A stretch of DNA of 64,000 nucleotides from NCBI GenBank assembly GCA_027080775.1, contig JALWPV010000032.1, positions 62,001 through 126,000 of the forward strand. Direction: 5' to 3'. Shown here piece after piece: positions 35,263-41,184 of this stretch (within the stretch, counting starts at the first letter, position 1; the number at the start of each line of letters is the position of its first letter). The stretch comes from Acidilobaceae archaeon (GTDB lineage: Archaea > Thermoproteota > Thermoprotei_A > Sulfolobales > Acidilobaceae). The notes below the pieces were generated by a model, which did no database searches, was not told the DNA's origin, and worked only from the letters and a program-made list of their open reading frames with translations. The position numbers and the translations under genes are program-made.

Positions 35263-35597
35263 CAGCCCCCCTCCCTTAGGGCCCATTCTACGTCCCTCCT
35301 AGCCTCGCCTGCCGCCATGGCCATGTCGTCGAGGCCCCTAGCCCTGGCCTCTGCCTCGATGTCCTCTAGCGCGCCCGCTATGACCTGGAGTAGTAGGTCC
35401 TCGGGGATCCTGCCCACGCTATCCAGCAGCTCAGCGAGGCGCCTACAGCCTCTAACCTCGTTGGCCTCGCACATCCTAAGAATCCGCTCGAGGCCCTCAA
35501 CAACCATGGAGACCGCACCCCCTAGCTTGGCCTGTGCATACCAGCGGATAAACGCCTGCCCAGCCGTAGCGGGCGCGGCGGCGCGAGGAGCGTGCAT
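35259..35597 (-). CDS. Small helical protein upstream of thiL
   Basis: 112 residues from ATG 35597 (the frame is open to 35645). Predicted all helical, with acidic and Ala/Arg-rich helices (LGGAVSMVVEGLERIL, DDMAMAAGEARRDVEWAL). No family recognised. It ends on a GTGA overlap with the thiL-like gene, so the two are coupled. Its start region overlaps that of the divergent amidohydrolase gene, with no visible TATA element between them. Confidence 0.5.
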   Translation of the reverse strand: MHAPRAAAPATAGQAFIRWYAQAKLGGAVSMVVEGLERILRMCEANEVRGCRRLAELLDSVGRIPEDLLLQVIAGALEDIEAEARARGLDDMAMAAGEARRDVEWALREGGW

Positions 35598-36557
35598 GTG
35601 GTGGACGGCTTGGCGGAAGGAGGCTACATAGACTTCCACGTGCACCTACCCTGGAGGGAGCATGACCCCAGGGAGGCAGCTAGACGGCTCCTCGCTGAGA
35701 TGGACTCTGCCGGCGTCGAGAGGGCAGTTGTCATCGCGGTCGAGCCCAGTCTGAAGCTGTTCAAGGAGAGGGTTAATGCCGAGACCATTAGGAAGGCGGC
35801 CGCCGACGCCCTAGACTATCTAGTCTACATGAGGATACCCAGGCTGCGCAGAATCCTCTTCTCCCCCGAGGAGAGCCTTAACGAGCATGAGAGGATCCTG
35901 GTGGAGCACACGCGGAGAAGCGAGGACGTACTGGAGGCAGCGGAGGCCTCCGGGGGGAGACTCCTGGCGGTGGCCAGCTACAACCCCGAGCTCGGGCCTA
36001 TAGGCACCCTCGAGAGAATCAAGGGTAAACGCTACCTTGGAGTCAAGCTGTACCCCACGCTACACTTCTGCACGCCCAACGAGAAGAGGCTCAGGCCTCT
36101 CCTAGATTACATGGAGTCGGAGGGGCTCATACTCATAGTGCACACGGGCTGCGACCCCGGCATATGGGAACTCCCCGACCTCTGCAGCGGCGCCAGGCCC
36201 TCCAGCCTGGAGCCCGTGGCTAGGAGGCACAGGGACCTCGTGATAGTCGTTGCCCACCTCGGCAGCTACAGCGCCCTGAAGCCCGGGATATACTTCGACG
36301 AGGCCCTGAGGCTCATCGAGAGGTACGATAACGTCTATGCAGACACTAGCGCCGTTGACTCCTTCCTGGTGGAGCTTGCGGTGGAGAGGGTGGGCTATGA
36401 TAAGCTCCTATTCGGGAGCGACTACCCCTACGTGACGGGGCTCACGATTGCGGACTTCGTGGAGTCGATCCTGCGCATGAATATAGAGTGGAGGGCCAAG
36501 ATGGCCATACTGCGCTGGAACGCGGAGAGGCTCCTCAAGAGGCTGGGCCGCCTCTAG
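35592..36557 (+). CDS. Amidohydrolase-family metal-dependent hydrolase (TIM barrel)
   Basis: 321 residues. It has YIDFHVHLPW (first metal motif), LGVKLYPTLHF, LILIVHTGCDPGIW, VVAHLGSY and LLFGSDYPYVTG (final Asp), the order expected for the amidohydrolase_2/decarboxylase-like group. Substrate unknown: candidates include lactones, decarboxylated aromatic acids or cyclic amides. Start is GTG 35592, or TTG 35610 nearer the barrel. Its stop shares a CTAG with the convergent radical SAM gene. Confidence 0.75.
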   Translation: MHVVDGLAEGGYIDFHVHLPWREHDPREAARRLLAEMDSAGVERAVVIAVEPSLKLFKERVNAETIRKAAADALDYLVYMRIPRLRRILFSPEESLNEHERILVEHTRRSEDVLEAAEASGGRLLAVASYNPELGPIGTLERIKGKRYLGVKLYPTLHFCTPNEKRLRPLLDYMESEGLILIVHTGCDPGIWELPDLCSGARPSSLEPVARRHRDLVIVVAHLGSYSALKPGIYFDEALRLIERYDNVYADTSAVDSFLVELAVERVGYDKLLFGSDYPYVTGLTIADFVESILRMNIEWRAKMAILRWNAERLLKRLGRL

Positions 36558-38098
36558 CCTGGGGGAGAGCGGAGCCTTATCTTGTGCTTGGATATGATCT
36601 TCTCCCACTCGGCCTTATTGTAGATGCACCCGGGATCCGGTGCCAGGGGGTCGCCGTAGTAGGCGTATGCCCTCGCCCTGCAGCCGCCGCATATGTACTT
36701 GTATGGGCACTTACCGCAGAAGCCCTTGAGCAGTTCCCTATTGCGGAGCTGCTGGAAGAGCGGGGCGGTATCCCATATCTCCCTGAAGCTCTTCTCCCTG
36801 ATGTTGCCGACCTTGATCGGTAGGAACACGCATGGCGTCACGTCACCATTAGGCTGGAGGGCCGCGTATATCCTGCCGGCTCCGCAGCCCCCGACGAACT
36901 CGGCTACGGCCTTCACTATCTTGTTATGGCCGACGTAGAAGTGTGTCGGAGCTATCTCCTCTCCACCGCTCATCTGGAGCACTATCCTCCCATACTGTGG
37001 AGCCGTGCTCACGATCTCGAGTTTCCTCCTCCTCATCTCCTTATAGACCATCCTGAATAACTCCTCCCTCTCCTCGGGGCTCAGATCGAGCCAGGCGTTC
37101 TCTTCACCGCGGCCCACGGGGACGAAGTTGAATAGTATCAGCCTTCTAACACCGATCTCCTCGGCTAAGTCTATGATGTCTGGTATCTCGTGTAGGTTGA
37201 GCTTGGTAACGGTAGTAGCCATTCCATTGTTGACGCCAAGCTCGACGGCGTTCCTGAGGGCTTGCACAGCCTTCTCCCAGGCCCCCGGCACGCCCCTGAA
37301 CTTGTCATGCACCTCGGGCTTGGCGCTGTCAACGCTTACCTCGACGTAGCGGAGTCCGAGCTTCACAGCCTTCTCGAGATTCTCCTTCTTAGCGAAGAAG
37401 GTTCCATTCGTCGCCACAGAGACGTAGATCCCCCTATCCGCTAGCTCCTTGACTATCCTGTAGAAGTGGGGGTGTATGGTGGGCTCGCCCCCGCTTAGGG
37501 CCACGCTAGCCACGCCAGCCTTGTCTAGCTGGTCTACGACCATCAACTTCTCCTCCAGCGTCAACTCATCCGGAGTAGGCCTGTCGGCCCTCTGATAGCA
37601 GTGGAGGCACCTGAGGTTACACATGTTGGTGAAGTTCCACACTATAAGGAAGGGTGCAGGCATCTTCTGGGGCACGGTGACACCGTACCTGCCCAGGCCC
37701 TCGAGCACTAGAGCTATGCCTCTCCTGAGGGCCGGATCTTTAAGGGCTTCCCTCGCCTCGTCTATGTTACCCCTGAGAAGCTTCATCCCAGCCTTTATTG
37801 TTGCCCTGAGCATCCAGCTAAGGAACCTGGCGGTTATGGGGCACCCGGTAACCCTGAGGCCCGCGAAGGCGGCGAGCGAGTGGTATATTATGGGGGCGTC
37901 CCATTCCTTACCGTCCTCCACGCATTTAACCCTCTTAGAAGAGGCCTTAAGGTAAGCCCTTGTCATGGGATTATTGAAGAGGAACCTTATCGAGGCCAGG
38001 AAGCTACCTATACCACCAGGCTTCTCGGGGAGCTCTTCAAAAGGCTCCTCGAGCGCCCCTGTCCCGCGGAGCTTCCCGTCGCCGCTTTCATCACCCAA
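36554..38098 (-). CDS. Radical SAM/SPASM-domain protein
   Basis: 514 residues. About 150 N-terminal residues are mostly helical and unfamiliar. The radical SAM core starts at TNMCNLRCLHCYQ (CxxxCxxC cluster), with LSGGEPTIHPHF and VEVSVDSAKPEVHDKFRG. The C-terminus carries a SPASM-like set: CGAG, PCVFLPIKVGNI, CGKCPYKYICGGCRARAYA and PDPGC, for one or two more iron-sulfur clusters. Such proteins modify peptides, cofactors or other molecules. Its neighbour upstream, 31 nt away on the same strand, is a B12-type radical SAM protein, so the two probably act in one pathway. TTG start with GGGGTG upstream. Confidence 0.85.
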   Translation of the reverse strand: MGDESGDGKLRGTGALEEPFEELPEKPGGIGSFLASIRFLFNNPMTRAYLKASSKRVKCVEDGKEWDAPIIYHSLAAFAGLRVTGCPITARFLSWMLRATIKAGMKLLRGNIDEAREALKDPALRRGIALVLEGLGRYGVTVPQKMPAPFLIVWNFTNMCNLRCLHCYQRADRPTPDELTLEEKLMVVDQLDKAGVASVALSGGEPTIHPHFYRIVKELADRGIYVSVATNGTFFAKKENLEKAVKLGLRYVEVSVDSAKPEVHDKFRGVPGAWEKAVQALRNAVELGVNNGMATTVTKLNLHEIPDIIDLAEEIGVRRLILFNFVPVGRGEENAWLDLSPEEREELFRMVYKEMRRRKLEIVSTAPQYGRIVLQMSGGEEIAPTHFYVGHNKIVKAVAEFVGGCGAGRIYAALQPNGDVTPCVFLPIKVGNIREKSFREIWDTAPLFQQLRNRELLKGFCGKCPYKYICGGCRARAYAYYGDPLAPDPGCIYNKAEWEKIISKHKIRLRSPPG

Positions 38099-38129
38099 GG
38101 CATCACACCCCCAGAGGCTAGCCGTAGGG

Positions 38130-39566
38130 CTAGTCCTTGCTCGTCATCCAGCGGAGGGGCCGGGCCATCACGTCCCTGAAGTATGCCAGCATCTCGCGGA
38201 GTAGTATGGCCCCCATATCCTTGAGGTGCCCGCTCTTGAACTCCCTCCAGAGGAAGGCTGGCCTGAGGAAGAACCTCCGGTAGGCATACTTCACCATGCG
38301 TGCTAGGTCCTTCGTGGTCCACGTAAAGCCCCTCATAACAGCCCTTACGGTGGTGTAGTGCTCCCAGTTCCAATCTTCGATCAAGTTGTGCTTCTTCGCG
38401 TACTCGAAGAGGGGTGTGCCGGGGTAGGGTGTTAGGGCCGTGAACTGAGCGTAGTCTGGGTCGAGTTTTATTGCGAACTCCACGGTTCTCTTCATGTCAT
38501 CGATGGTCTCCCAGGGGAAGCCTAGTATGAAGCTGCCCATTGCGTGGCCTCCCAGCTCCTTCTTCCACCTGAAGACCCTGATGGCTTGTTCTATCTTGAT
38601 CTTCTTCCCAATCTTGTCTATTGTGGCCTGGCTGGCGCTCTCAACGCCGAAGTAGAGTATGGCGCAGCCGTTGTCGTAGAGGAACTTCATGAATTCCTTG
38701 TTTACGTGGTCCACCCTGGCGCCGCAGGCGAACTCTATGTCGAGGCCCCTCTCTTTTATCTCCTTGACCCAGTCCCTCACGAACTTCTTGTTAATAACTA
38801 GCTCGTCGTCTGAGAACACGACGTACTTGGCCTTATACTTGTTGTAGAGGTACTCGACCTCATCCGCTACGTCTTTGGCACTCCTGTAGCGTATCCTTCT
38901 GCCCCAGAAGTAGCTGGTCGAGCAGTACATACACCCATAGGGGCAGCCCCTACTGGCCATGACGTGGGCTATCTGTATGGGTTTGTTGAAGAGCCTATAC
39001 TTGTCCATGGGGAGTAGATGCCTGGCAGGCCAGGGTAGCTCGTCCAGGTTCTGTATGAGGGGCCTCGGCTTCGTGACGACCACCCGGCCTTCCCTGGGGT
39101 CCTTGAAGGCTATGCCAGCAACCTCCCTGAGGGCGCTGGGGTCGTAGCCCCTTTCCTCGAGCGTGGCCACTAGGTCCCTAGTGGTATACTCGCCCTCCCT
39201 GAACACTACTATGTCGAAGCCGTTGGAGAGGGCCTCCTTCCACATGGCGGTGGGGTGGGGGCCCCCGGCGACGGTTATGACGTCGGGCATCTCCTCTTTA
39301 AGCCTCCTGGCGGCCTGATAGCCCTTAGGGGCGGTGGGTGTGAGCATCGAGAAGCCCACGACGTCGGGGTCAAAGGATTTCACCTCTCTGAGCCAGTCGT
39401 CGAAGCCTATCTCGAGGGTCGGGGAGTCTATGATCTTAACCTTGTGACCCTCCCTCTCGAGGACAGCGGCGATCCACGCTAGTCCCAGCGGGGGGGCCTT
39501 CATCCCTGCTACCCTGTAGATCTCGAGTCTATGCACGTCGGGGGGTAGTGTGAGAAGCACCCTCAA
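38130..39566 (-). CDS. B12-binding-domain radical SAM protein
   Basis: About 478 residues. The N-terminal half is a cobalamin-binding-like Rossmann domain (PPLGLAWIAAVLEREGHKV, DPDVVGFSMLTP, VAGGPHPTA), followed by ASRGCPYGCMYCSTSYFWG (CxxxCxxC), FGVESASQATIDKI and a C-terminal helical part like that of BchE/HpnP/GDGT-ring-synthase type enzymes. These carry out methylations, cyclisations or rearrangements on unreactive carbons. A lipid or cofactor modification role is inferred only from family. Frame is open to GTG 39599, but the TATA-like CATATAG near 39610 and GGAGGGG before TTG 39566 favour the latter start. Confidence 0.84.
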   Translation of the reverse strand: MRVLLTLPPDVHRLEIYRVAGMKAPPLGLAWIAAVLEREGHKVKIIDSPTLEIGFDDWLREVKSFDPDVVGFSMLTPTAPKGYQAARRLKEEMPDVITVAGGPHPTAMWKEALSNGFDIVVFREGEYTTRDLVATLEERGYDPSALREVAGIAFKDPREGRVVVTKPRPLIQNLDELPWPARHLLPMDKYRLFNKPIQIAHVMASRGCPYGCMYCSTSYFWGRRIRYRSAKDVADEVEYLYNKYKAKYVVFSDDELVINKKFVRDWVKEIKERGLDIEFACGARVDHVNKEFMKFLYDNGCAILYFGVESASQATIDKIGKKIKIEQAIRVFRWKKELGGHAMGSFILGFPWETIDDMKRTVEFAIKLDPDYAQFTALTPYPGTPLFEYAKKHNLIEDWNWEHYTTVRAVMRGFTWTTKDLARMVKYAYRRFFLRPAFLWREFKSGHLKDMGAILLREMLAYFRDVMARPLRWMTSKD

Positions 39567-40380: not shown

Positions 40381-41184
40381 TTATAGAGGCCGGACTAGGA
40401 TCCTGTCGCCAGGGCTCACGCCCAGTTTCTCGGCGGCGCTGCCCTGGTTGACGGCGGCCTCGAGGAAGCCGAAGCTGTTGATGTACAGGAGGCCCTCTCC
40501 AGGCGGTACATCGGAGAAGGTTCTAGCCCTCCTAGCCCTAAGGTCGCCCCGAGGCCCGCTAAGCAGGGCGTCGCCCGCGGGGAGCTTGCGGGTGCTTAAG
40601 GCCACGTTTCCAAAGCTGTCAACGTATAGGACTAGGAGCTCCTCTCCCTCCGGGTGGGGCCTCGAGTACTCTAGAGAAAGCTTGGTCAACTCCTCGGCAT
40701 CCACCTCGACTCCAAGCCTCGAGGGCTCCACGCCCGAGACCGCTAGGGCGGCGGCTGGCAGGAAGACATCCCTCCCATGAAAGGTCGCCGAGAGCCTCCA
40801 CCCCCACGGCGGTCCCTCGCATTGCCTCCTAGCCTCTCTCAGTACCCTCTCGGGATCTAAGGCGTATGCAGCCTCTATGCCATCCTCCAACGCAGCGGGG
40901 TAGGCCACACCGTTATCCGGGGCCGATATGAAGTATCGCCTGCCCGCTATGAGCAGCGCCCTCCTCCTAGAGCCGACCCCGGGATCTACCACTACAGCGA
41001 CTCCACTGCCCCGGGGCAGCCAGAAGATGGTGTTGTAGAGCACGTAAGCCCCTGCTAGAGGCGAGAAGCTTGGCACGCTATGGTCAATATCCACGGCGTC
41101 GACGCCCAGGCACCTAGCAAGAGCCCTTAAAACTCCATCGTAGACTCCCCAACCGAAGTCTGTGACGAGGCCGACCAGAGCCAT
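40381..41184 (-). CDS. S-adenosyl-L-methionine hydrolase (SAM hydroxide adenosyltransferase, DUF62)
   Basis: 267 residues. TDFGWGVYDG at the N-terminus, DIDHSVPSFSPLAGAYVLYN, VVVDPGVGS.RRALLI, PDNGV and TFHGRDVFLPAAA match the DUF62/fluorinase-chlorinase fold. Archaeal members use activated water to split SAM into adenosine and methionine. The biological reason for this is unsettled. ATG start. It is divergent from gdhA. Confidence 0.9.
   Translation of the reverse strand: MALVGLVTDFGWGVYDGVLRALARCLGVDAVDIDHSVPSFSPLAGAYVLYNTIFWLPRGSGVAVVVDPGVGSRRRALLIAGRRYFISAPDNGVAYPAALEDGIEAAYALDPERVLREARRQCEGPPWGWRLSATFHGRDVFLPAAALAVSGVEPSRLGVEVDAEELTKLSLEYSRPHPEGEELLVLYVDSFGNVALSTRKLPAGDALLSGPRGDLRARRARTFSDVPPGEGLLYINSFGFLEAAVNQGSAAEKLGVSPGDRILVRPL

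Follow-up and report, generated by a model that had tools for sequence, protein, structure and literature searches.

What do two adjacent radical S-adenosylmethionine (SAM) genes, one with a SPASM domain and one with a B12-binding domain, make in an Acidilobaceae archaeon? The genes lie in a stretch of 64,000 nt that was analysed as a whole (the window, to whose positions all coordinates refer; contig JALWPV010000032.1, GCA_027080775.1). The initial annotation had reported both with complete CxxxCxxC motifs and 31 nt apart, which is borne out by the open reading frames (ORFs), the motifs and Pfam, and had proposed a two-step modification of a lipid, cofactor or peptide. The reading favoured here, at a probability of roughly 0.7, is that the locus serves to build H-shaped, membrane-spanning lipids and then to modify them, employing a glycerol monoalkyl glycerol tetraether (GMGT) synthase of the Gms type, a B12-dependent methylase and a regulator. 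The last of these would be encoded by a third linked gene that the initial annotation did not include, and this gene is the part that is new here, the SPASM half being already explained by Gms and the B12 half probably by a methylase partner.

The SPASM gene and its product class

The SPASM protein contains Radical_SAM and SPASM domains (Pfam; SPASM 1.8e-12). Its radical SAM CX3CX2C motif (C160/C164/C167) is kept in 88/88 aligned homologues, and the seven SPASM cysteines C405, C423, C461, C464, C470, C473, and C491, assigned to two auxiliary cluster sites, are invariant in the same alignment (87/87 at the last position). Gms, which joins the two chains of a tetraether lipid to give H-shaped GMGTs, is described in its 2024 report as having three [4Fe-4S] clusters and four consecutive parts: an N-terminal domain of six helices, the radical SAM core, a bridging region and the SPASM domain (Li, 2024; PMC11186832). 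The window protein appears to share this order and has the three-cluster cysteine set, and according to the same report Gms occurs in anaerobic thermophilic archaea, as does the window gene. A point of difference is that the window gene shares its operon with a gene for a B12 radical SAM enzyme and a further conserved gene, neither of which is mentioned in the portion of the report available (Li, 2024; PMC11186832). By family and architecture, the SPASM protein is almost certainly a Gms-type synthase of GMGT, also called H-shaped glycerol dialkyl glycerol tetraether (H-GDGT). The label is an assignment of this kind because the relatives compared were those of Thermococci, the published reference Gms not being among them; Gms membership is drawn in that report at identity >30% and E<1e-50 to the reference Gms, with a network score of 90 (Li, 2024; PMC11186832).

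Identity is 55-59% to homologues in metagenome-assembled genomes of Thermococcus and in one such genome of Ignisphaera, and up to 61% to Thermococci relatives (range 55-61%). The helical N-terminus, initially described as unfamiliar, can be aligned to Thermococcus homologues from about residue 26-30 and probably corresponds to the six-helix Gms domain, and the product, initially given as unknown, belongs to a class published in 2024 (Li, 2024; PMC11186832). Close resemblance to a functionally characterized enzyme, which the initial annotation had named as counting against its proposal, has thus largely been found for the SPASM gene, by way of homologues and not of the reference sequence. A more distant Gms-like SPASM protein (L117:2787-4088; 31% identity) aligns from residue 40 on, so that part of the N-terminal domain is present there also.

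SPASM enzymes often mature peptides or serve heme and cofactor synthesis, and the top NCBIfam scores of the window protein include TIGR04053, AhbD, and NirJ2, as would suit a maturase of ribosomally synthesized and post-translationally modified peptides (RiPPs) or an enzyme of heme or cofactor synthesis. All of these scores, however, fall far below the cut-offs (AhbD 267.5 vs 500; AhbC 187.7 vs 650; the NirJ and TIGR04053 cut-offs are likewise far from reached), and AhbC/D-like and TIGR04053 SPASM genes are present as separate genes elsewhere in the same genome (contig C69). The initial suggestion of precursor-peptide genes nearby found no counterpart among 354 small non-genic ORFs beside 89 gms genes, in which no conserved family was detected; the largest cluster has 7 members, and the four of these that are listed all lie in Thermococcus loci. 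A RiPP or heme role for the SPASM enzyme is regarded as very improbable, and of the products first proposed the lipid is upheld, by the Gms family and architecture and by the conserved B12 partner, and the peptide finds no support.

The B12-dependent partner

The association of the two enzymes was surveyed in 214 genomes of the order, from which rows of 34-42% (gms) and 28-35% (B12 gene) identity were dropped as paralogues. The gms gene was found in 82 genomes and the B12 gene in 70, with 61 genomes having the pair; gms without the B12 or the third gene occurs in 10. Where both are present they lie <1 kb apart in 44/61 genomes, on the same strand in all 44, with the B12 gene first in 39 and gms first in 5. 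A chance arrangement is therefore excluded, and the neighbourhood survey that had been proposed as a check finds the two genes conserved together. Among 80 loci fetched with the SPASM protein as query, many of which end at contig boundaries, a B12 relative is present in 31 and directly adjoins gms in 30 of these. A survey of 115 genomes from the phylum to which a Thermococcus belongs detected gms in 51 and a B12 relative of 37-42% identity in 14, of which 13 also have gms and 1 does not. In three of these 13 genomes the genes touch, in eight they are about 5-16 kb apart on one contig, and the remaining pairs are separated by 190 kb (1) or located on different contigs (1). The tie between the B12 clade and gms thus extends over Thermoproteota and Thermococci alike.

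The B12 protein has B12-binding and Radical_SAM domains (Pfam), with its CxxxCxxC motif at C219/C223/C226. A midpoint-rooted tree separates the window and Thermococci proteins, as a clade with 100/100 support, from the f9, f4, and f3 paralogue families. The nearest paralogous clade includes proteins of f9 (probably Sulfolobaceae) of roughly 530-590 aa, 31-33% identical to the window protein. These paralogues are likely to be ring synthases, and we take them to be candidates for the GDGT ring synthases GrsA/GrsB. GrsA/GrsB likewise combine B12-binding and radical SAM domains and act on archaeal tetraether chains, whereas the window protein is shorter than these candidates (478-489 aa), falls in a clade apart from theirs and co-occurs with gms.

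A radical SAM methylase of GMGT, Gmm, was reportedly described by Garcia et al. in PNAS in 2024 and is said to work with Gms on the core chains. The window B12 gene shows the genomic link to gms that would be expected of a Gmm gene; a point of difference is that B12 genes of the window type sometimes occur in genomes without gms. Judged from sequence and gene linkage, the B12 enzyme is probably a Gmm-type methylase that acts on the lipid chains, giving methylated H-GDGTs. Lipids of this description are on record: published work reports H-GDGTs with 1-4 extra methyls as abundant in heated marine sediments (PMC5572230) and methylated GMGTs in Methanothermobacter marburgensis (PMC10134847).

Another possibility is that the B12 enzyme acts on H-shaped lipids as a cyclase, oxidase or head-group enzyme, forming a ring as GrsA/B do or a cyclitol ether in the manner of HpnJ or calditol synthase. 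Its best NCBIfam matches, BchE (230 bits vs a cut-off of 481), ApyD (197) and HpnJ (195 vs 578), could be read in this way, although all are far below their cut-offs (as is a further equivalog, HpnR, at 125 vs 650), and so could the proximity of the f9 clade; cyclic H-GDGTs are also known from hot sediments (PMC5572230). The separation and shorter length of the window clade, the linkage to gms, which points to chain chemistry, and the abundance of the methylated forms in the same sediments stand on the other side, and a non-methylating B12 enzyme is considered unlikely.

Some variation within the B12 group was noted. In four loci (L014, L015, L051, and L139) the B12 gene, of ~53% identity, lies downstream, not upstream, of gms, and together with that of L053 these genes form a well-supported clade of their own, possibly a second type of B12 enzyme. 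One genome (G146; L108 and L109) has two B12 genes, 65% and 60% identical to the window's, and at L132 (G180, family f9) adjacent gms and B12 genes stand next to another SPASM gene. An apparent B12-gms fusion at L068, in a 1309-aa ORF, was rejected: beyond the B12 part the ORF departs from the frame of the gene, and gms is read in a different one. In Thermococci the B12 relative is found near a membrane protein and a second protein (clusters k1 and k3, 10 loci each; L155, L157, L158, L160, L161, L164-L168), presumably of the bile-acid-symporter-like and universal-stress-like families, respectively. For the window gene, an alternative start at a TTG codon (39566; residue 12 of the longer ORF, giving 478 aa) is plausible because homologues mostly align from residue 11-12.

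A third conserved gene upstream

Directly upstream of the B12 gene, 65 nt away and on the same minus strand, is a gene whose product has no Pfam, NCBIfam or PHROGs family match, only single-member weak matches or none being returned. A profile built from 30 members detected it in 72/214 genomes of the order, of which 70 have gms or the B12 gene as well; the 9 genomes in which the B12 gene occurs without gms all carry it. All 27 carrier genera belong to the 40 in which gms or the B12 gene is present, and the remaining 38 genera contain no carrier (Fisher p 2e-11, with genera counted by hand and shared deeper ancestry uncorrected). A sample of 398 genomes from the phylum contains 41 carriers, of which 20 fall outside the order; when the partner genes were sought in the carriers of this sample, plus genomes G112 and G122, those 20 were found to have gms in every case and the B12 gene in 16.

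The placement of the third gene is close to, yet not fixed within, the enzyme operon. It lies <1 kb from gms or the B12 gene in 52/72 genomes of the order, 45 times on the same strand, 6 times divergent and once convergent; outside the order all 20 copies are close to gms or the B12 gene, 15 convergent and 5 on the same strand. The others are unlinked, or their distance is obscured by contig breaks, and the flanks of ten free-standing copies that were checked (unlinked, or that of G112) show no match to gms, the B12 gene or tes. In the Thermococci loci examined, no third gene was seen in the vicinity of gms or of the B12 relative, whole Thermococci genomes not having been searched.

The protein has a C-x6-C-x-D-x-P motif; C37 and P41 occur in every one of 48 sequences, C30 and N141 in 47 each, and D39 in 46. 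Its isoelectric point does not separate it from the enzymes (medians 9.11, 8.92, and 9.07). An AlphaFold2 model of high confidence (predicted local distance difference test, pLDDT, 93.4; predicted template modelling score, pTM, 0.88) gave no Foldseek match in the PDB at E <=0.001, and neither did its N-terminal part; the fold is not shown to be new by this model. The best sequence-profile match in the PDB was the repeat protein C3HR3_9r_shift4 (E 0.0067). Residues 8-102 folded alone (pLDDT 89.6) reached VIA Z scores up to 4.4, compared with 2.2 for the full model, and the matched entries are mostly DNA-binding proteins, a weak but consistent winged-helix resemblance. The helix-helix-helix-hairpin order of winged-helix regulators (1sfx, AbfR2, Rex, GntR, and others; Z 2.2-4.4) can be recognized in the modelled N-terminus, and the protein differs from them in an extra beta and helical C-terminal part and in the conserved C-x6-C-x-D-x-P.

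The free placement of the third gene and the winged-helix-like N-terminal part of its product suggest a dedicated regulator of the gms locus. The more specific proposal, that it founds an undescribed family of winged-helix sensor-regulators of tetraether cross-linking and methylation whose C-x6-C-x-D-x-P reads redox state or metal, is put forward tentatively. A role as an enzyme subunit or chaperone, such as a substrate-presenting or cluster-handling protein, is a serious possibility, if short of even odds: the predominance of the same strand in the order, the conservation of C37 and C30 and the lack of a significant PDB match for the full-length model are all compatible with it, but the divergent and convergent copies, the unlinked copies without partners alongside and the absence from the Thermococci loci examined are not what such a role would lead one to expect.

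Predicted pathway and neighbouring genes

A GDGT synthase gene, tes, is present elsewhere in the genome (equivalog 735.6 bits vs a cut-off of 450; 7tol match 1.5e-133). Tes would supply GDGT, in which Gms would use 5'-deoxyadenosyl radicals to form a C-C bond between the two isoprenoid chains, giving GMGT. The B12 enzyme, after Gms or in parallel with it, would place methyl groups on unactivated chain carbons (mainly of GMGT, possibly of GDGT), a reaction in keeping with radical SAM methylases of class B. The third protein (219 aa) may be a DNA-binding protein of the winged-helix type that controls the gms and B12 genes, perhaps sensing redox state or metal through its conserved cysteines. The gene layout, motifs, family relationships, co-occurrence, linkage and the tes gene are shown by the analysis; we infer that both reactions occur in this organism, that the B12 enzyme methylates and that the third protein regulates.

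Several observations weigh against this reading. BchE and HpnJ, the top NCBIfam models for the B12 protein, are not methylases, and the Gms and Gmm assignments were made without direct comparison to the published sequences (for Gms, METOK_RS04425 and WP_062369926.1). The B12 gene occurs without gms in 9 genomes of the order, including G145 (98% complete), G063 (93%), and G147 (92%), and the B12 enzyme is for this reason not strictly a GMGT enzyme. The third gene is missing from 11 genomes that have gms and the B12 gene, among them G074 and G075 (99% complete, single contig), and is present in G112 (94% complete) with neither partner found, as also in G122 (55% complete). Finally, the similarity to winged helices is weak, at a best Z of 4.4 and with Foldseek E values above 1, and the conserved cysteines may serve a purpose other than redox or metal sensing.

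GMGT (H-GDGT) abundance is read as a signal of temperature and anoxia. The B12 gene can mark, at the genome level, organisms predicted to make methylated H-shaped lipids among hyperthermophiles of this order and part of the Thermococci, and the third gene offers a testable handle on the regulation of GMGT synthesis. A literature search centred on Gms listed no paper on a regulator of GMGT or GDGT synthesis; if the proposal is true, the sensor-regulator would set the share of the membrane turned into H-shaped lipids and would be the first known regulator of GMGT synthesis.

Table 1. Features of the locus and its immediate neighbours.
Feature	Position	Strand	Basis
gms, GMGT (H-shaped tetraether) synthase by assignment, radical SAM/SPASM, 514 aa	36554..38098	-	Pfam, cysteines, Thermococci homologues, domain layout
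Intergenic gap between B12 gene and gms, 31 nt	38099..38129	-	ORF coordinates
B12-dependent radical SAM gene, probable Gmm-type methylase of GMGT/GDGT chains, 489 aa	38130..39599	-	Pfam, gms linkage
Third gene, undescribed family, candidate winged-helix regulator of the gms locus, 219 aa	39665..40324	-	co-occurrence, AlphaFold2, weak winged-helix similarity
(R)-S-adenosylmethionine hydrolase-like gene (SAM_HAT)	40381..41184	-	
Amidohydrolase gene (Amidohydro_2)	35592..36557	+	

The SAM_HAT gene lies upstream of the third gene at a distance of 56 nt and may serve in the clearance of damaged SAM at high temperature; it did not emerge as a conserved neighbour in the ORF clustering. The amidohydrolase gene on the other side lies tail-to-tail with gms, overlapping its 3' end by 4 nt, and recurs as a neighbour of gms in L011-L013.

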